From assembly GCF_028368975.1 (NCBI RefSeq), contig NZ_JAQNDM010000002.1, forward strand, positions 992,001-1,056,000: DNA of 64,000 nt, in the 5' to 3' direction. This DNA comes from Stigmatella ashevillena. GTDB lineage: Bacteria > Myxococcota > Myxococcia > Myxococcales > Myxococcaceae. Every line of letters begins with the position of its first letter. Position 1 is the first letter of the stretch. Of the stretch, positions 1 to 61,569 are shown piece after piece. A program made the position numbers and the translations under genes. The notes under the pieces were generated by a model, which saw nothing but the letters and a program-made list of their open reading frames with translations, made no database searches and was not told where the DNA came from.

Positions 1-282
1 CCCAGTGTCAGGGTAGAGCACGGCCTCGCTGAAGACCTGACCACCGCGAGCAATGGCCTCGGGGGAGACCCACTCGGCGTTCAGATGGGAGTCTTTGATG
101 AACGATTCGAGGATGCGTTGGCACTTCACCGGTTCGAACCGCGCGGTGACCCATTGATGGAGGAGCGCACCATAGGGGATTCGGGGACGAAGGGGCTCGA
201 AGAGGATGTTCAGGTCGCGGCGAAAGAGCATGGCGAGACAGGGGCGCATCTGATACCAGATTCCGGCAGTAACCGTGAGCAT
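1..282 (-). CDS. Partial hypothetical protein, runs off the left edge
   Basis: Reading the minus strand from an ATG at 282 gives 94 uninterrupted codons that leave the window at base 1, so only the N-terminus is present. Third codon positions are mostly G or C, as in genuine genes of this genome. The product begins MLTVTAGIWYQM and is rich in Arg, Leu and Phe; I recognise no family. The ATG lies only 17 bases from the divergent exporter start at 300, leaving little room for two ordinary promoters. A later ATG at 249 (MRPCLAMLF) would widen the gap. It could belong to the exporter/FkbH locus, but nothing visible proves that. Confidence 0.5.
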   Translation of the reverse strand, partial: MLTVTAGIWYQMRPCLAMLFRRDLNILFEPLRPRIPYGALLHQWVTARFEPVKCQRILESFIKDSHLNAEWVSPEAIARGGQVFSEAVLYPDTG

Positions 283-2573: not shown

Positions 2574-3191
2574 TTGACCGCCGAGCGCTGCTGGGTCCAT
2601 CTTGCGAAGCGGAGGCATCGGTTGGCCGAGGCAAACGACGAACTTTTCCGCAAGGAGGCGCTGGAGCACCTGTCGGGCGCCCGAGAGCTCGGGAGCGTGC
2701 TGCGGCTTTCTCCTGGCTGGGTGTATCGCGCCTCCTGGTTGATGGGGAGCTCGGCGATCCTGTGCACGGCCCTCGCCGTGTTCGTGCGCGTTCCCGTGTA
2801 CGTCAGCGGCCCGGCTGTCATCAGAACGGAGGGGGCACGTCCGGTGGTCATCGCCGTGCTGCCCGGTGAGCATCGCTCGCGGCTCATGGAAGTGAGTTCG
2901 CTGCGGCTCACGCTCCAAGCGCACCCCTCCTTCGCCCTGGAGCTGCCGCTTTGCGGCATGGGGGAGCAGATCGCGGGAACGGAGGAACTCCGGGCGCTGC
3001 GAGGGCCTGAGCCGGACGTGTCCGCAGCACCGGCACCCGTGCCGGTACGGGCTTGCCCACTGGCGCGCACCTTCGAAGTGGATGGCGGGCAGCGGGAGTA
3101 TGAACCAGGGATGCGAGGAAAAGTGGAGTTGGGGGTCGGCTCGCAGAGGTTGTTGAGCCTCGTTATCGGAAAGGACGGGCTACTGCCCTGA
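2574..3191 (+). CDS. Short HlyD-like adaptor stub of the exporter locus
   Basis: A 205-residue protein from a TTG start, between the two exporters (30 bases after the first, 6 before the second). The N-terminus has the phrase LFRKEALEHL that typifies membrane-fusion proteins of peptide-export loci, then one membrane helix (about residues 58-78) and a short periplasmic part with RVPVYVSGPAVI, the beta-strand entry of HlyD adaptors. A normal adaptor is about twice as long and has a long coiled-coil hairpin and lipoyl domains; here these are missing, and the rest is short beta-like sequence with an Ala/Pro-rich linker. It may be a reduced adaptor that works with the two exporters rather than with a TolC-type channel. 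The call rests on the N-terminus and context; the C-terminal half is not recognised. Confidence 0.72.
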   Translation: MTAERCWVHLAKRRHRLAEANDELFRKEALEHLSGARELGSVLRLSPGWVYRASWLMGSSAILCTALAVFVRVPVYVSGPAVIRTEGARPVVIAVLPGEHRSRLMEVSSLRLTLQAHPSFALELPLCGMGEQIAGTEELRALRGPEPDVSAAPAPVPVRACPLARTFEVDGGQREYEPGMRGKVELGVGSQRLLSLVIGKDGLLP

Positions 3192-3197
3192 AGTGCC

Positions 3198-5387
3198 ATG
3201 GCTGAAAAACGCTCCGCACTCCCAAGGCGGTTGCGGCTGCTCGCGCGCCTCATGACGGCTGCTCCGCGCGCGCCCGTGCCATACGTGGCGCAGCGCTCCG
3301 AGGCGGAGCGTGATGCCGCCTGCATGGTGATGGCACTGGGCTGTCTGGGCAGACAGGTGTCGCTCGACGGCATCCTGGCGAAGCTCCGAGAGCCTACCGA
3401 GCACTCCAAGGTGGACGCCCTGCACCATGCGGCCCGCGCACTCGGGCTGCGTGTCCGCAGCGTGGGGTGGAGGGCAGAGGAACTCGGGTACCTTGAGCCA
3501 GGGACGCTGTTGCACGACAGGCGGCAGGGCACCGTCGTCTTCGAGCGGCTGACGGCGCGCACCGTGGTGGTGGTGGACCCGGCCGTGGGGCGGCGGAGCA
3601 TCCCGCTGACGCGGGTGGAAGAAGTGCTCACCGGCGAAGCGCTCCTGCTCGAGCCAACGGCGGCCTTCCAGCAAGAGGACACCGAGAGCGTGCGCGTGAA
3701 AGAGCTGTGGTGGCGCATGTTGCGCTCCGGGTTGCTGTGGCGCATCCTGGGCGGCTCCGCACTGTTGCAGCTCTTCGCGATCGGCCCCCCCGCTCTCAGC
3801 GGCGTCATCATCGACCAGGTGGTGCCGCATGGCGACTGGCCTCTGCTCGGACTGCTGACGTCCGGACTGGCACTGATCCTGGGCTGCCTCCTGTTGGCCT
3901 CGCTGGTCCGAGCGCACCTGTTGCTGCAATTGCGCACTTGGCTTGAGGCGCGCATGACGTTCGGGCTGCTGGAGCATTTGGTGGAGCTTCCCATCTCCTT
4001 CTTTCAACGCCATTCGTTGGGGGATCTGATGGGCCGGGTGGGAAATGCCGCCAGTGTGCGCGAACTGCTGACGGCGGGAACACTCTCGGGAGCCCTGGAC
4101 GGAGTGCTGGTGAGTGTGTTCCTGGTGGTGCTGTTCGCCGTCAGCCTTCCCATGGGGTTGGTGGTGCTGGGGTTCGGGGCGCTGCAGGCCCTGGTGCTCT
4201 TCGCCGCCAGCACCCGCCAGCGGCAACTGCTCATGCGCAGCCTGGAGAGCGAGGCACGCTCAGAGAGCTTCCTGGTGGAGCTGCTCACCGGCATCCAGAC
4301 GGTGAAGGCCATGGGCAAAGAGCCCTGGGCCCTGGGAGAATGGTCCCGGCGTTTCTCCGAGGTGCTCGACGTCAGCCGTCACCGCGGCCGGTTGGGCGCT
4401 TGGGTGGAAGCAGCCATGGGGGCCTTGCAACTGGGCGCGCCACTCGCAGTGCTCTGCTTCGGAGCGTGGATGCTCCTTCAAGGAGCCTTTTCGCTGGGGA
4501 CGTTGCTGACCACCGAAGCGCTGGCGCTCGGGCTGCTGCGCCCGTTGTCCGGACTGCTCAGCACGGTCATGCAGTTCCAGCTCCTGGAAATGTACCTCTC
4601 GCGCGCCTCGGAACTGCTCGAGGCCGCTCCCGAGAAGGCCTTCGGGCGCCCAGCTCCACTGCTGCAGGGTGAGGTGGTCCTCGACTCGGTCTCGTTCCGT
4701 TACGAGGTGCAGGGTCCCCTGGTGGTGCAAGACGTCTCGGTGCGGATACAACCAGGGCAGATGGTGGCCATCGTGGGCTCGTCGGGCGCGGGCAAATCCA
4801 CTCTGGCAAGCCTGCTGATGGGCATGGTGCTCCCCACATCGGGGCGCATCCTCTACGATGGGATGGACTTGACGGAACTGGAGCTGCGCTCGGTGCGGCG
4901 GCAGCTCGGCATCGTCATGCAGTCCTCCACCCTGTTCGCCGCGAGCGTGAGGCAGAACATCACGCTTGGCTACCCGTCAGCCACGATGGATGAGGTGCGC
5001 GCGGCGGTCCGGCTCGCGCACCTCCAGGACGACATCCATCAGATGCCCATGCGCTATGAGACACCGTTGATTGATCGGGGAATGGCGCTCTCAGGTGGGC
5101 AGCGGCAGCGGTTGGCGCTCGCGCGGGCGCTGGTGCACGAACCCGCCATCCTGCTGCTGGATGAGGCCACCAGCTCGTTGGACGCCGTGACGGAGCATCA
5201 GGTACAGCAGACGCTCGAGCAGCTCCAGTGCACACGCATTGTGATTGCACACCGTCTCTCCACGGTACGACGCGCGGACCTCATCCTGTACATGGAGGGC
5301 GGCCGGATCATGGAAGCAGGAACGCACGAAGCCCTGCTTGCGAGGCAGGGGGCGTACGCAGCGCTGATCTCCGCACAACTTGGGTGA
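3198..5387 (+). CDS. C39-like ABC exporter with degenerate (inactive) peptidase domain
   Basis: A 729-residue homologue of the exporter at 300, with the same layout: N-terminal C39-like domain (about 28-145), transmembrane region (about 165-460) and ATPase with Walker A GSSGAGKST (about 528), LSGGQRQR and ILLLDEAT. In the peptidase domain the position of the nucleophile Cys40 of the partner is Arg38 (AERDAACMVM) and the catalytic His is Gly111 (RRQGTVV); only Asp127 remains. The domain therefore should not cut leaders and may act as a leader-binding C39-like domain, as in RTX exporters such as HlyB. The ATPase half looks fully functional. With the active exporter upstream this suggests a heterodimeric transporter or division of labour between cutting and exporting. 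Confidence 0.9.
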   Translation: MAEKRSALPRRLRLLARLMTAAPRAPVPYVAQRSEAERDAACMVMALGCLGRQVSLDGILAKLREPTEHSKVDALHHAARALGLRVRSVGWRAEELGYLEPGTLLHDRRQGTVVFERLTARTVVVVDPAVGRRSIPLTRVEEVLTGEALLLEPTAAFQQEDTESVRVKELWWRMLRSGLLWRILGGSALLQLFAIGPPALSGVIIDQVVPHGDWPLLGLLTSGLALILGCLLLASLVRAHLLLQLRTWLEARMTFGLLEHLVELPISFFQRHSLGDLMGRVGNAASVRELLTAGTLSGALDGVLVSVFLVVLFAVSLPMGLVVLGFGALQALVLFAASTRQRQLLMRSLESEARSESFLVELLTGIQTVKAMGKEPWALGEWSRRFSEVLDVSRHRGRLGAWVEAAMGALQLGAPLAVLCFGAWMLLQGAFSLGTLLTTEALALGLLRPLSGLLSTVMQFQLLEMYLSRASELLEAAPEKAFGRPAPLLQGEVVLDSVSFRYEVQGPLVVQDVSVRIQPGQMVAIVGSSGAGKSTLASLLMGMVLPTSGRILYDGMDLTELELRSVRRQLGIVMQSSTLFAASVRQNITLGYPSATMDEVRAAVRLAHLQDDIHQMPMRYETPLIDRGMALSGGQRQRLALARALVHEPAILLLDEATSSLDAVTEHQVQQTLEQLQCTRIVIAHRLSTVRRADLILYMEGGRIMEAGTHEALLARQGAYAALISAQLG

Positions 5388-5399
5388 GACTGGGTCACA

Positions 5400-7589
5400 A
5401 TGGGCGAGGAAGCATACACACTAAGCCAGTACGTTCAGATCCTTCGCATCGATGATTCCCAGGCAGTCGTCGGGAATCCATTTCGATTGCAGCGCCTCGT
5501 GCTCTCCACGGAGCTGGCTGATTTCCTTCAGCTGTTCCAAGGCGAGGCTCGCGCCTTGTCTCAGCTGAGGGAACTCGTCGACGCACCGCCACAGGCCATC
5601 GAAGGCTTGGTCGAGTTCTTCCGGTCAAAGGGGCTCATCGTCCTCACCGGGCTCGACGAGACCGCGACCCTTGGCTCGGAGCTTCGCCGACTGCTCGACA
5701 AGGGCAATGTGGATGACGTCCAGGACAGGAGCCGACTCTATCATGCGCCCATACGGCTTGAGGCCTCGCGGCTCCGGCCCCGGTATGGAACGGGCTCACT
5801 GACCCCCCTCACGATCCTTGTGCTCGGTGGCTGCTTCACCCAATTCACTGCGGATGCTCTCGAGGAATCTGGCGCCAACCATGGCTTCGATGTCCGGGTG
5901 GAAACGGGTTGGCCCGGGGATGTCGACATGATTGAGCGGATCCGCCCCGAGGTCGTCGTGCTTCAAGTCACGACGACCTGGTTACTCGCGCCACTCTGGG
6001 ACGAGGCGCCGTTCCTGGATGATAACGAGCGCGAGCGCCGACTCGAGGCGCTCAAGAATGCCACCGCCGTGACCGTTCAGAAGGTTCTCGATCAGTGTGC
6101 CGGCCGCCTGTTGCTCCTCCAAGGCTTCTCGACACCACAGATCTCTCCTCTCGGTATCACCGAATTCAGGCACCGATGTAATTTCCAGCGCATCGTCTAC
6201 GAGCTCAACACGTTGTTGGCCGAGCTGGCTCGGGACAATCCCAACGTACTGCTGGTAGATGAGGAACGGCTTGCCGCGAACTCTGGCCGATCGCGGCTTC
6301 TGGACGACGGGATCGTGCCTTTCAGCCACCATGCGCCGATCGATTTCTGCTGTGGCCCGATCCCTCCTGGCCCGAGCCGTGAGGAAACCTGGAGCATCCA
6401 GATGGCCTGCCACCTGCCGCGTCTGTTGGCAGCCGAGTACCTCGATCTCTACATCCTCTGGTCTGGCAGGTGGAAGATCAAATGCGTCGTCGTCGATCTC
6501 GATAATACTCTCTGGCCCGGTGTCGTTGGCGAGACTGGATTCTCGCTCAAGACGGAAAACAGCTTTCAAGCGCTGAGATACGGTCCGTTTGGCGGTCTGC
6601 ATCAAGCCCTTAAGATCTTGAAGCATCGAGGGGTTCTGCTCGCCACGTGTAGCAAGAACAATCCAAGCGATGTCGCGTCTGCGTGGGAATCGCTCCGAGA
6701 GACGGCGAAGACAGAGGGCATGAGCCATCTTCTGCTGCCGGAAGACTTCGTATTGCATAAAGTGAACTGGAAACCCAAGTCGCAAAACGTAGGGGAACTC
6801 ATCAGTGAACTCGGCATTGGCGAAGATGCAGTGCTCTTCATCGATGACAATCCGATCGAACGTGCCGAGGTGTCGGCTGCGCTTCCGTCAGTGCGCGTGC
6901 TCGGCGACAACCTGCACCGTGTCCGTGCGCAACTGCTGTCGGATCCGTGTCTGCAGAACAATGTCGCCAGTCACGAGAGTCAACGACGCACTGAAACGAC
7001 GCTCGCGCAGCTCACACGAGAGACGGCTCGCCGTCAAGCCCCCGACGAGGCCTCCTTCTTGCGCTCGCTGGAGATCCGTCTCCAAGTCAAGCGAGTCCGA
7101 TCCAGTGCGCACGTACCACGCCTCGTCGAATTGCTGCAACGCACGAACCAGTTCAACACGACACTGAAGCGCCACGATGCTGACCAGATGCGGAGTTTCC
7201 TTTTTTCGGAAGCAGCCCGCGTCTACACACTCGAAGCACAAGACCGATTCACGTCCTACGGCGTCGTGGGATTGTGCATCATCGCGGAACAGCAGATCGA
7301 TACACTGTTACTCAGTTGCCGGGTTCTCGGGCTCCAGCCAGCGATACCGTTCCTGGTCACCGTGCTGAATGATGTCGCGGAGTTTCCAATCACCGGCACC
7401 CTCGTGGAGGGTCCACGCAATCAGCCTAGCCGTGATGTCTATCGCCTCGCGGGTTTCTCGGCCCTTGGCGGCGGGCGGTTCATCGCGGAGCAGGCCAGTG
7501 CACTGACGGCCATCGATCAATCCATCTATTTGATCGACCTCATTCACGAGGCCTCCCCAGAGCCCCCCATTCCCAAACTCCAGCCCTGA
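5400..7589 (+). CDS. FkbH-type HAD glyceryl-transfer protein with PqqD/RRE-like N-terminus
   Basis: A 729-residue HAD-IIIC/FkbH family protein. Characterised FkbH enzymes take the glyceryl group of 1,3-bisphosphoglycerate and load it on a carrier protein. Visible parts: a winged-helix-like segment (about 10-90, ending EFFRSKGLIVL) that reads like PqqD or a RiPP recognition element; an SGNH-like region (about 135-345, starting ILVLGGCFT); the HAD core with nucleophile motif VVVDLDNTLWPG (about 360-370) and FIDDNPIERAEV (about 480); and a GNAT-like C-terminus (about 560-715). It starts 12 bases after the exporter pair, so it is probably co-transcribed. No PKS, NRPS or carrier protein lies nearby, which is odd for FkbH. 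A role on a ribosomal peptide bound by the N-terminal domain is inference. Codon usage is somewhat less GC-extreme than in neighbouring genes. Confidence 0.85.
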   Translation: MGEEAYTLSQYVQILRIDDSQAVVGNPFRLQRLVLSTELADFLQLFQGEARALSQLRELVDAPPQAIEGLVEFFRSKGLIVLTGLDETATLGSELRRLLDKGNVDDVQDRSRLYHAPIRLEASRLRPRYGTGSLTPLTILVLGGCFTQFTADALEESGANHGFDVRVETGWPGDVDMIERIRPEVVVLQVTTTWLLAPLWDEAPFLDDNERERRLEALKNATAVTVQKVLDQCAGRLLLLQGFSTPQISPLGITEFRHRCNFQRIVYELNTLLAELARDNPNVLLVDEERLAANSGRSRLLDDGIVPFSHHAPIDFCCGPIPPGPSREETWSIQMACHLPRLLAAEYLDLYILWSGRWKIKCVVVDLDNTLWPGVVGETGFSLKTENSFQALRYGPFGGLHQALKILKHRGVLLATCSKNNPSDVASAWESLRETAKTEGMSHLLLPEDFVLHKVNWKPKSQNVGELISELGIGEDAVLFIDDNPIERAEVSAALPSVRVLGDNLHRVRAQLLSDPCLQNNVASHESQRRTETTLAQLTRETARRQAPDEASFLRSLEIRLQVKRVRSSAHVPRLVELLQRTNQFNTTLKRHDADQMRSFLFSEAARVYTLEAQDRFTSYGVVGLCIIAEQQIDTLLLSCRVLGLQPAIPFLVTVLNDVAEFPITGTLVEGPRNQPSRDVYRLAGFSALGGGRFIAEQASALTAIDQSIYLIDLIHEASPEPPIPKLQP

Positions 7590-7716: not shown

Positions 7717-10700
7717 ATGGCGACGGGTGAAGGACATCAACGCAGCGCCGATGTGGTGATCCTGACGGCTATCACGCTGGAGTTTCAAGCGATGCTCCAG
7801 GTGGAGGCCGGGGCCTGCGAGGGCAGCCACTGGGAGCAGGAACAGGGGCCCAACGGTCTGCCGGTCGCGTTCCGGGAGTTCAAGACCCGGCAAGGACAAC
7901 GGCCCCTGCGCGTGGCCGTCGCACAAGCTGGAGACATGGGGGCAGTCGCGGCGACCAACGCGCTGCTGCCCCTGGTGATGCGCTATGCGCCCCGCTGCGT
8001 GGCGATGTGCGGTGTGTGCGCGGGCCGCCCTGGCAAGACGAACCTCGGAGACGTGGTCGCCGCCGAGCGCTTGTTCTTCCACGACACCGGCAAGCAACTG
8101 CCTGACCAGGTCCAGCAGGACCTCAAGACATACAACCTGCGCGATGACTGGAAGGTGGCGCTCGAGCACTTCGACTTCGCCGCGCGCTTCCAGCAAGAGC
8201 CCTGGTGGCAGCAGCGCCCCATTCCTTACGAGTGGCAGGAGAACTGGGTCCTGGCGAAGTTGCAGGAGGACGTCACCGATCCGTCCCAGCATCCCGAGTG
8301 CGAGCAGTTCTGCCTGCGGTGGGACTCGGTCATTGAGTCGCTCTGGAAGTCGGGCGCCGTCCAGGATGGCACGCTCCTGCTCACCGAACAGGGACGGAAG
8401 CGAATCGGCCGGGTGCTCATCAAGCATCGCAACCATCTGCCCGAGCTGTCTCCGGCGGGCTCAGTGCTTCCCTTCAAGGTCCACGTCGCCCCCATGGGCA
8501 GCGGCAACAAGGTCGTCGAGGACCACGAGGTGTGGAGCTTCGTGTCCGAGCACATGCGCAAGACCCTGGGTCTGGAGATGGAGGCCGTGGCGCTCGGCGC
8601 GCTGGCGCATGCGCAGCGGGAGAGGAAGCTCGATGCCCTGGTCCTCAAGGGCGTGATGGACTTCGCTAACCACGGGCGCGACGATCAGTTCAAGCAATAC
8701 GCCGCCCGAGCATCAGCGGAGTGCTTGCTGGCCTTCCTCCGAGAGACGCTGGACGTGGAAGTCGTGCCCGGAACGGACGACCTTCTGGAATCTGGAACGG
8801 AGAAGTTGCCCGAGAATCCCCCCCCCTCCGCCCTGCTCAACGCGCGCTATCAGGTCGTCCCCTTTCACGAGCAGGGACGGGAGGCCATACTCGCGGAGCT
8901 GGCGCGCTGGTGTGAAGAGGGTCCCGCAGTGGCGGTGCGGCTGCTGCACGCGCAAGGAGGCGCAGGCAAGACCCGGCTCGCCCTCGAAGCGGTGCGGCGT
9001 CAGGATCTGAAGGATTGGTCCACCGGTTTCCTCCCCAAGCAAGTGCCCGAGGATTGGCTTGAGCGCTTGTGGAAACGAGGGCGGCCCACGCTGGTGGTCA
9101 TCGACTACGCCGAGAGCCGTCCAGACCTGAGCTCGGTGCTGCTGCGATTGGTCCGCTACCGCCACCAGGAAGGTGGGGGGTTGATGCGCCGGATGCGGCT
9201 GCTGCTCCTGGCGCGCAACGCCGAGGACTGGTGGCAGTCATTACGAGACAAGACGGAGCTGAACACATGGCTGGATGAGACAAAGCCCTACGAACTCCCT
9301 TCCCTGACTCCACTCAAGACAGAGCGCGAGAGGGTATTTCAGGAGGCCGTGGCAGAATTCGCCCTGCGGTACAAGGTGAAAGCAAAGCCGCGAGGTGACC
9401 TCCAGTTCATGGACGATCGGTTCGAGCGAGTGCTCTATCTGCACATGGCCGCACTCGCCTGGGTGGAGGGCCTTGCATTTGATGCGACCACCTTGATGAA
9501 GGTGATCCTCGACCACGAGGAGCACTTCTGGGAAACGCAGGCCCCCCCGTCGGATACGGCGCTCTCGCTGCGGAAGTCCTTGGCGCGTCAGGTGGTGGCC
9601 GCCGCCACTCTTCGTGGAGGGATGGAGGACTCCTCCACGGCCGCTCACATTGTGACAAAGCTGCTGCCGCGATCCTTCAACGAGAAGGATCAGGAACTGC
9701 TCCAACTGCTGCATCGCATCTACCAGCGGAAGGAGCAGGAAGCGTCCATGTATCTCCCCGCCTTGGAGCCCGACCTCCTGGGCGAGGCCATGGTGCTTCG
9801 GGTCGCCTCGCCTGAACGCGAAGAAGACCGGGTGGCCCCGGACTGGATTGACCGGGTGCTTCCCTCGGATGCCGAGGAACGGATCGTGGGCAGCGGACTG
9901 GAGGTACTCGGCCGTGCATCCGCCGCGCATCCTGAGGCGGGGCGACAATGGCTGGAGAGACTCCTGACGGACCCCTTGCGACCACGTGCGCGCCTTGCAT
10001 TGGTGGCCGCAAAGAACGTGGGAATGCACACGGCGTTCTCCCTATTGGGAGAGGTCCTGGCTGAGCGGCTTCGCGCGGTCAGTGATGTCGAGTTGGCCCT
10101 TGAGCTCATGGCTGTAGGAATTCCTCAATCCACAGTGTCACTGGGAGAGGTCGACGTCTGGATTCTGACCACACTCCTACAAGTACCTGGATCAGCGATT
10201 GGAGAGGCCTCGGAGAGAACAAGAGCGTCGCTTCTCAATAACCTGGGCAACAGGTTGAGCGACCTGGGACGGCGAGAGGAGGCTCTGGAGGCCTCGTGCG
10301 AGGCGGTTGGACTCTATCGTGCGTTGGCGAAACGCAACCCCGATGCGTTCCGGCCTAACCTCGCCGCCGGTCTCAACAACCTGGGCGTCATGTTGAGCGC
10401 CCAGGGACGGCGAGAGGAGGCCCTGGAGGCCTCGCGCGAGGCGGTTGGACTGAGGCGTGAGTTGGCGAAGCACAACCCCGATGCGTTCCGGCCTGCCCTC
10501 GCCGCCAGTCTCCACAACCTGGGCGCCAGGTTGAGCGGCCTGGGGCAGCGAGAGGAGGCCCTGGAGACCACCCGTGAGGCGGTTACACTCTATCGCGAGT
10601 TGGCGAAGCGCAACTCCGATGCGTTTCGGCCGGACCTCGCCGCCAGCCTCCACAACCTGGGCAACAGGTTGAACGACCTGGGACAGCGGGAGGAGGCCCT

Positions 10701-11424
10701 GGAGGCCACGCACGAGGCGGTTGGACTGAGGCGTGAGTTAGCGAAGCACAACCCCGATGCGTTCCGGCCAGACCTCGCCGCCAGCCTCCACAACCTGAGC
10801 AACAGGTTGAACGACCTGGGACAGCGAGAGGAGGCCCTGGAGGCCTCGCGCGAGGCGGTTGGACTGAGGCGTGAGTGGGCGGAGCGCAACCCCGATGCGT
10901 TTCAGCCGAACCTCGCCGCCAGCCTCCACAACCTGGGCAACAGGTTGAACGACCTGGGACGGCCAGAGGAGGCCCTGGAGGCCACGCGCGAGGCGGTTGG
11001 ACTGAGGCGTGAGTTGGCGAAGCGCAACCCCGATGTGTTCCGGCCGGACCTCGCCGGCAGCCTCAACAATCTGGGCGCCGTGTTGAGCGCCCTGGGACGG
11101 CCAGAGGAGGCCCTGGAGGCCACGCGCGAGGCGGTTGGACTGAGGCGTGAGTTGGCGAAGCGCAACCCCGATGCGTTCCGGCCGGACCTCGCCGCCAGCC
11201 TCAGCAACCTGGGCGCCATGTTGAGCGCCCTGGGACAGCCAGAGGAGGCCCTGGAGGCCTCGCGCGAGGCGGTTGGACTGAGGCGTGAGTGGGCGGAGCG
11301 CAACCCCGATGCGTTTCAGCCGAACCTCGCCGCCAGCCTCTACAACCTGGGCGCCATGTTGAGCGCCCTGGGACGGCGAGAGGAGGCCCTGGAGGCCTCG
11401 AGCGAGGCTCTTGAGTACTCCTAA
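7717..11424 (+). CDS. Nucleoside phosphorylase - STAND-like NTPase - TPR protein (probable defence protein)
   Basis: A 1235-residue three-part protein. Residues about 10-345 are a nucleoside phosphorylase/nucleosidase domain: VVILTAITLEF at the start, the conserved LEMEAVALGA, and KGVMDFANHGRDD with the conserved Asp near the end. Residues about 375-830 are a P-loop ATPase with Walker A QGGAGKTRL (about 412) and Walker B TLVVIDYAES (about 465), then a helical region. Residues about 835-1235 are nine TPRs of 46 residues. Effector-NTPase-repeat is the layout of NLR-like immune proteins, and phosphorylase-fold effectors (for example in Detocs) are known to destroy ATP after phage infection. A role as an abortive-infection sensor is therefore likely by analogy but untested. 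The gene stands alone behind the FkbH gene and is convergent with the DUF2019 gene. Confidence 0.9.
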   Translation: MATGEGHQRSADVVILTAITLEFQAMLQVEAGACEGSHWEQEQGPNGLPVAFREFKTRQGQRPLRVAVAQAGDMGAVAATNALLPLVMRYAPRCVAMCGVCAGRPGKTNLGDVVAAERLFFHDTGKQLPDQVQQDLKTYNLRDDWKVALEHFDFAARFQQEPWWQQRPIPYEWQENWVLAKLQEDVTDPSQHPECEQFCLRWDSVIESLWKSGAVQDGTLLLTEQGRKRIGRVLIKHRNHLPELSPAGSVLPFKVHVAPMGSGNKVVEDHEVWSFVSEHMRKTLGLEMEAVALGALAHAQRERKLDALVLKGVMDFANHGRDDQFKQYAARASAECLLAFLRETLDVEVVPGTDDLLESGTEKLPENPPPSALLNARYQVVPFHEQGREAILAELARWCEEGPAVAVRLLHAQGGAGKTRLALEAVRRQDLKDWSTGFLPKQVPEDWLERLWKRGRPTLVVIDYAESRPDLSSVLLRLVRYRHQEGGGLMRRMRLLLLARNAEDWWQSLRDKTELNTWLDETKPYELPSLTPLKTERERVFQEAVAEFALRYKVKAKPRGDLQFMDDRFERVLYLHMAALAWVEGLAFDATTLMKVILDHEEHFWETQAPPSDTALSLRKSLARQVVAAATLRGGMEDSSTAAHIVTKLLPRSFNEKDQELLQLLHRIYQRKEQEASMYLPALEPDLLGEAMVLRVASPEREEDRVAPDWIDRVLPSDAEERIVGSGLEVLGRASAAHPEAGRQWLERLLTDPLRPRARLALVAAKNVGMHTAFSLLGEVLAERLRAVSDVELALELMAVGIPQSTVSLGEVDVWILTTLLQVPGSAIGEASERTRASLLNNLGNRLSDLGRREEALEASCEAVGLYRALAKRNPDAFRPNLAAGLNNLGVMLSAQGRREEALEASREAVGLRRELAKHNPDAFRPALAASLHNLGARLSGLGQREEALETTREAVTLYRELAKRNSDAFRPDLAASLHNLGNRLNDLGQREEALEATHEAVGLRRELAKHNPDAFRPDLAASLHNLSNRLNDLGQREEALEASREAVGLRREWAERNPDAFQPNLAASLHNLGNRLNDLGRPEEALEATREAVGLRRELAKRNPDVFRPDLAGSLNNLGAVLSALGRPEEALEATREAVGLRRELAKRNPDAFRPDLAASLSNLGAMLSALGQPEEALEASREAVGLRREWAERNPDAFQPNLAASLYNLGAMLSALGRREEALEASSEALEYS
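10233..11424 (+). repeat. 138-bp tandem repeats encoding 46-residue TPRs
   Basis: Eight full copies and a truncated ninth of a 138-base unit, in frame inside the phosphorylase/NTPase gene. The spacing is visible from the recurring GATGCGTT words (for example at about 10342, 10480 and 10618). Each unit encodes a TPR of the pattern L-NLG-RL-LG-REEALEA-REAVGLRREL plus the linker NPDAFRPDLA. The copies are nearly identical in DNA, with changes clustered at a few codons, as expected for units that expand, shrink and recombine. Confidence 0.95.
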
Positions 11425-61305: not shown

Positions 61306-61569
61306 GTGAGCAATCCCGCCGTCGCCAAGCAGCCGTCCGCAGGCAGCCGTGATTGGATGTGTCACTATCTGGCCAAGAAGCTGGGCGTCTCGCCCGATCA
61401 GGTGGACACCAAGAAGACCTTTGACAGCTTCGGACTCGACTCGGCCGAGGCCGTGCGCATGGTCGGTGATCTGGAGGACTTCGTTGGCCGCCGGCTGTCT
61501 CCCAGCCTGCCCTACAAGTACCCGACCATCGAAGCACTCTCCCAGCACCTGGATGCGGGCAAGAGCTGA
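61306..61569 (+). CDS. Acyl carrier protein
   Basis: An 87-residue carrier from a GTG with GGAGA upstream. The phosphopantetheine site is Ser in FGLDSAEAVRM. The surrounding sequence (KKTFDSFGLDS and PTIEALSQHLDAG) is more like PKS-type carrier domains than the FabF/AcpP carrier of primary fatty acid synthesis. Its place between desaturase and methyltransferase suggests a dedicated acyl carrier for this pathway. Confidence 0.9.
   Translation: MSNPAVAKQPSAGSRDWMCHYLAKKLGVSPDQVDTKKTFDSFGLDSAEAVRMVGDLEDFVGRRLSPSLPYKYPTIEALSQHLDAGKS

Follow-up and report, generated by a model that had tools for sequence, protein, structure and literature searches.

An FkbH enzyme with an N-terminal RRE, encoded by the last gene of a class I lanthipeptide cluster in Stigmatella ashevillena: a candidate glyceryl-transferring tailoring enzyme

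In this work, the last gene of a biosynthetic locus in Stigmatella ashevillena was found to encode an FkbH enzyme that carries an RRE at its N-terminus, and the locus itself is, by its predicted gene content, a class I lanthipeptide cluster. We hold it somewhat more probable than the reverse that this enzyme, guided by its RRE, takes a C3 (glyceryl) unit from 1,3-bisphosphoglycerate and acylates the lanthipeptide with it. There is good support for a role of FkbH in lanthipeptide biosynthesis, and the novelty lies in the type of tailoring enzyme that this lanthipeptide cluster contains.

The window (the whole stretch of DNA analysed, 64,000 nucleotides, with base 1 at C2:992001 of the contig) begins inside the biosynthetic cluster, and the genes for the precursor, LanB1, LanB2 and LanC are located upstream of it. 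The gene order is precursor, LanB1, LanB2, LanC, a gene for a metallo-beta-lactamase-fold (MBL) protein, the exporter block and FkbH. The earlier note, written from the window alone, had proposed a RiPP system and had pointed upstream of base 1 for its precursor. A 55-aa precursor with a GG leader was indeed found there together with LanB1, LanB2 and LanC, so the RiPP is a lanthipeptide, a class that had not been foreseen. The precursor gene (C2:983592-983759, + strand) encodes the leader MNEKQEKQVVEAKKLKLKIDPKSFRFLTNVEASKISGG, which ends in SKISGG, and the core LPTTTDGTSGQCNGSTC with seven Ser/Thr, two Cys and no Lys; the peptide matched none of the family models. LanB1 (C2:983967-987179, L003:11967-15179, + strand) contains by Pfam both the N (glutamylation) domain (PF04738, 6.4e-139) and the C (elimination) domain (PF14028, 9.8e-62). 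LanB2 (C2:987189-989516, L003:15189-17516, + strand) is a tandem duplicate of LanB1, 77% identical, in which Pfam finds the N domain only, and because the elimination domain is absent this protein may only glutamylate. LanC (C2:989503-990816, + strand; PF05147, 1.5e-42) carries the zinc-ligand motifs WCYG and CHG. The MBL-fold gene (491 aa, C2:990807-992282, - strand; Lactamase_B_2, 8e-8) reaches with its 5' part into window positions 1-282. Because genome G045 and Nannocystis pusilla also pair MBL with FkbH, the protein was initially considered a dedicated partner of FkbH. This idea was dropped, since MBL is a common member of the LanB-MFP-C39-MBL operons of other myxobacteria, mostly without FkbH.

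The exporter block begins with a C39 peptidase/ABC exporter (300-2543, + strand; Peptidase_C39, 2.9e-31, with ABC domains) that scores 593 bits with the NHLP exporter model TIGR03796, under its cut-off. Its peptidase Cys and His are intact, and it is predicted to cut the leader at GG and to export the peptide. A probable membrane-fusion protein of 205 aa (2574-3191, + strand) is placed between the two exporter genes; it matched nothing in Pfam or NCBIfam and is short, and related operons carry MFP homologues at the matching position. The second C39/ABC transporter (3198-5387, + strand; Peptidase_C39, 1.3e-12) has a degenerate peptidase domain, in which the alignment places Arg at the position of the peptidase Cys and the His is lost, and is probably a transport-only partner. 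The start codon of FkbH follows 12 bp after the stop of this gene. The earlier note had placed FkbH 12 bases behind C39-type exporters; the gap is as described, but only the first of the two transporters retains the peptidase Cys and His. Directly after FkbH, at 7717-11424, there is a 1235-aa protein of NLR-like architecture, whose N-domain is nucleoside-phosphorylase-like (PNP_UDP_1) and which also has a P-loop/STAND-like region and some nine TPR repeats that are nearly identical.

The FkbH gene occupies positions 5400-7589 of the + strand as an exact open reading frame of 729 aa. Its protein passes TIGR01686 (FkbH) with 209.7 bits over residues 360-687, against a curated cut-off of 146.65 bits, which confirms the enzyme assignment that had been made from the letters. 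FkbH_N (PF21211) gives a weak match of 13 bits at residues 141-304, under its cut-off. The full-length AlphaFold2 model (pLDDT 83.4) matches the FkbH-like protein BF1531 (3SLR, 1e-44) and MDP-1 phosphatases. Three parts can be delimited: the RRE (residues 1-95, 5400-5684), an N-domain of SGNH/GDSL-like fold (residues about 135-310, 5802-6329), for which the Foldseek matches are the GDSL esterases 7E16 and 8IK1, and the FkbH domain with the HAD phosphatase and the C-terminal transferase part (residues 360-687, 6477-7460), all on the + strand. The HAD residues D366, D368, S418, K460, D482 and D483 are all present. In an alignment of 100 FkbH proteins, C640 of the S-C640-R motif is kept in 99, and the HAD residues and Cys640 are conserved in the RRE-bearing and canonical sets alike. 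On the other hand, the RRE-FkbH set reads W-P-G at a HAD motif where most canonical FkbH proteins read W-G-G, and Cys145 and His310 of the SGNH-like domain are invariant among RRE-FkbH and mostly absent from canonical FkbH. This SGNH-like domain with Cys145/His310 (residues 135-310, window 5802-6329) might be a second acyl-transfer site.

By profile and by model, residues 1-95 of FkbH are a real RRE fold, a winged-helix peptide clamp, as the earlier note had suspected from its PqqD/RRE-like look. A profile built from 20 aligned homologues sharing the N-terminal region retrieved one credible PDB sequence, the radical SAM maturase TigE (8VPO, residues 5-95, E 2.4e-6). Residues 1-117 were modelled by AlphaFold2 with a pLDDT of 90.5 as a small beta sheet with three helices, as in solved RREs, and the best PDB structural matches of this model are almost exclusively RRE domains, with TigE, LynD/TruD, MccB, TbiB1, PbtF, ThcOx, TbtB, MadB and MibB ranked highest or nearly so by Foldseek. 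VIA-align superposed it on TigE with Z 13.0 and an rmsd of 1.7 Å across 89 residues; the Z values for other RREs were 9.1 (MccB), 8.9 (MibB), 8.8 (TbiB1), 8.5 (NisB) and 6.5 (PqqD). Taken together, the TigE profile match, the model and the RRE structural matches identify the winged helix as an RRE. With hhalign, the N-terminal profile aligned to the PqqD alignment in the correct register (E 5e-5, probability 67%; 42% in the reverse direction). A search of the whole genome with PF05402 (PqqD) at E<=0.001 found two other sites only and gave no match at the FkbH N-terminus, so the RRE assignment draws its support from the profile of homologues and from the model.

Homologues that share this N-terminus were found in genomes G045 and G155, Paraliomyxa miuraensis, Nannocystis pusilla, three Streptomyces and an alphaproteobacterial clade. 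In other Myxococcota they occur in one class II (LanM) cluster and one further class I cluster. The former is that of G045, where a full-length homologue (39%) lies next to MBL, a class II precursor, LanM and a C39 exporter. The latter is that of Paraliomyxa miuraensis (L092:9884-21946), with FkbH, a precursor, LanC, an arginase-family protein, two JmjC oxygenases and LanB; by gene content it would be a heavily tailored lanthipeptide, and the first 90 residues of its arginase-family protein also look RRE-like. In G318, an FkbH relative whose N-terminus is cut off by the end of its 6.7 kb contig (L154) adjoins a RiPP-maturation radical SAM C-methyltransferase (TIGR03975, 549.7 bits). A LanC-like gene lies within 10 kb of three of the five myxobacterial RRE-FkbH genes and of none of 20 canonical myxobacterial FkbH genes (Fisher p 0.004), and, given the density of LanC-like genes, the chance of at least three such linkages within 20 kb is about 7e-6; both figures come from a small set that includes the query and a control limited by draft contigs. 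Linkage of relatives to lanthipeptide genes is found in G045 and Paraliomyxa, but the members linked in this way are few, and the RRE-FkbH family extends beyond RiPP clusters. Nannocystis pusilla pairs its FkbH with MBL only, the neighbourhood in G155 contains no RiPP genes, none were recognised near the Streptomyces genes, which belong to ATP-grasp/condensation-type clusters, and none are recognisable at about 14 alphaproteobacterial loci. At three alphaproteobacterial loci (L043, L047 and L048) RRE-FkbH stands beside a 2OG-Fe(II) oxygenase, which at two of them is fused to a redoxin domain, and no RiPP enzymes are seen nearby; loci of this type could possibly represent another, unrecognised peptide pathway.

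Since RRE-FkbH also occurs outside RiPP clusters, possession of an RRE does not have to imply that a leader is bound. The domain could be vestigial or serve another partner, and RRE-FkbH could be a general family which some lanthipeptide clusters have captured and which does not act on the precursor. The oxygenase-linked alphaproteobacterial genes and the Streptomyces genes without RiPP neighbours fit this explanation, as does the precedent of BmdC, an NRPS tailoring oxidase with a remnant RRE (PMC8795117). It is nevertheless rather unlikely in our estimation, as the linkage in Myxococcota recurs with two lanthipeptide classes and separates RRE-FkbH from canonical FkbH (3/5 vs 0/20).

Described FkbH domains load 1,3-bisphosphoglycerate and dephosphorylate it, so that a carrier ends up bearing glyceryl (PMC8949500, PMC7489565, PMC10099666). 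It may therefore be asked whether the present enzyme serves a distant assembly-line carrier, its place behind the exporter being incidental, given that the described enzymes act on ACP/PCP carriers (PMC8949500, PMC7489565) and the genome holds 137 carrier domains. However, a search of the whole genome with PF00550 found no carrier domain closer than 54 kb to FkbH; the nearest lies 54 kb downstream, and the next are at 96 kb and at 106 kb upstream. No PKS/NRPS was found directly upstream of the window. The earlier note had named such an assembly line and an N-terminus lacking RRE similarity as the two findings that would overturn its idea; both were looked for, and neither was obtained. The nearest carrier is a standalone 91-aa open frame at window positions 61306-61569, with two desaturase-like genes and a gene resembling cyclopropane-fatty-acid synthase on either side; it was checked as a partner of FkbH and rejected, sitting as it does among desaturases and the cyclopropane synthase. 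The sole other FkbH of the genome is part of a 4649-aa assembly line, where it precedes a T domain of its own in cis. The 12 bp gap to the exporter operon and the linkage to lanthipeptide genes in two more genomes also argue against service to a distant carrier, which we consider very improbable.

We hypothesize that glyceryl acylation of the lanthipeptide proceeds as follows. The RRE (residues 1-95) would bind the leader of the 55-aa precursor, and the FkbH part would take 1,3-bisphosphoglycerate, so that the invariant Cys640, the presumed acyl carrier of the enzyme, becomes loaded with (phospho)glyceryl as a thioester. The HAD domain would strip the 3-phosphate, and the C3 acyl unit would pass to the core rather than to a phosphopantetheine carrier. 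As the core lacks Lys and the leader stays on the peptide in the cytosol, the unit would be accepted by the hydroxyl of a Ser/Thr or the thiol of a Cys in the core. The other Ser/Thr would be dehydrated by LanB1/LanB2, LanC would close the lanthionine rings, and the intact C39 exporter would cleave after GG and export the product together with the second transporter. That the ribosomal precursor replaces the phosphopantetheine carrier in this manner, with FkbH O- or S-acylating the core with glyceryl from glycolytic 1,3-bisphosphoglycerate, is a proposition to which we assign even chances. The glyceryl (C3) unit on the peptide is predicted from FkbH chemistry and the conserved catalytic residues. 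A comparison of core peptides from FkbH-containing clusters with those from clusters lacking FkbH revealed no obvious or conserved acceptor motif. A lactyl or glyceryl cap at the N-terminus was considered and discounted, since the leader comes off only at export.

The context and the RRE would be equally well explained if the enzyme tailored the lanthipeptide under RRE guidance by other chemistry: the phosphoglyceryl group could be left on, another acyl phosphate could be used, or the enzyme could open an alternative dehydration route, in which a glyceryl ester of Ser/Thr is formed and then eliminated by LanB1, LanB2 having no elimination domain. The W-P-G motif in place of W-G-G, the invariant Cys145 and His310 of the SGNH-like N-domain, and the presence of LanB2 as a 77% identical LanB1 duplicate without an elimination domain are consistent with such a departure. 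Yet every canonical HAD phosphatase residue and Cys640 are retained, so unchanged donor chemistry is the simplest reading, and we regard other chemistry as unlikely, though deserving of some weight.

The presence of RRE-FkbH in a lanthipeptide cluster points to a chemical decoration that has not yet been described for lanthipeptides. We know of no experiment demonstrating peptide acylation by any FkbH, and glyceryl decoration is, to our knowledge, not known for lanthipeptides. In the open-access literature that was searched, no case of an FkbH acting on a RiPP or lanthipeptide was found. The main text of the RRE-Finder study lists glycosyltransferase and GST fusions as new and is without FkbH (PMC7470986). 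If the acylation hypothesis holds, the tailoring of a peptide antibiotic draws directly on an acyl phosphate of glycolysis, FkbH enzymes are not confined to carrier proteins, and lanthipeptides gain a glyceryl decoration. Furthermore, RRE-FkbH offers a genome-mining handle for further such clusters.

By comparison with known systems, the enzyme shares its HAD residues and S-C-R motif with the FkbH-like glyceryl transferase/phosphatases (FkbH, OzmB, Mad7/Mad14 and the vioprolide and corramycin FkbH domains), and likewise passes the TIGR01686 cut-off. It differs from them in its N-terminal RRE, in WPG instead of WGG, in having no carrier nearby and in its place in a lanthipeptide cluster. With class I lanthipeptide clusters the locus has in common the GG-leader precursor, a two-domain LanB, the zinc-ligand motifs of LanC and the C39 exporter, and it resembles the LanB-MFP-C39-MBL operons of other myxobacteria, whereas the duplicated LanB without an elimination domain, the inverted MBL gene and the terminal RRE-FkbH set it apart. 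In RRE-containing RiPP enzymes (TigE, TruD/LynD, MccB, TbiB1, NisB) the RRE is likewise borne by the modifying enzyme, and here it is fused to FkbH. BmdC, too, has its RRE on a tailoring enzyme, but BmdC acts on an NRPS, whereas the candidate substrate here is a precursor peptide and no NRPS is nearby.
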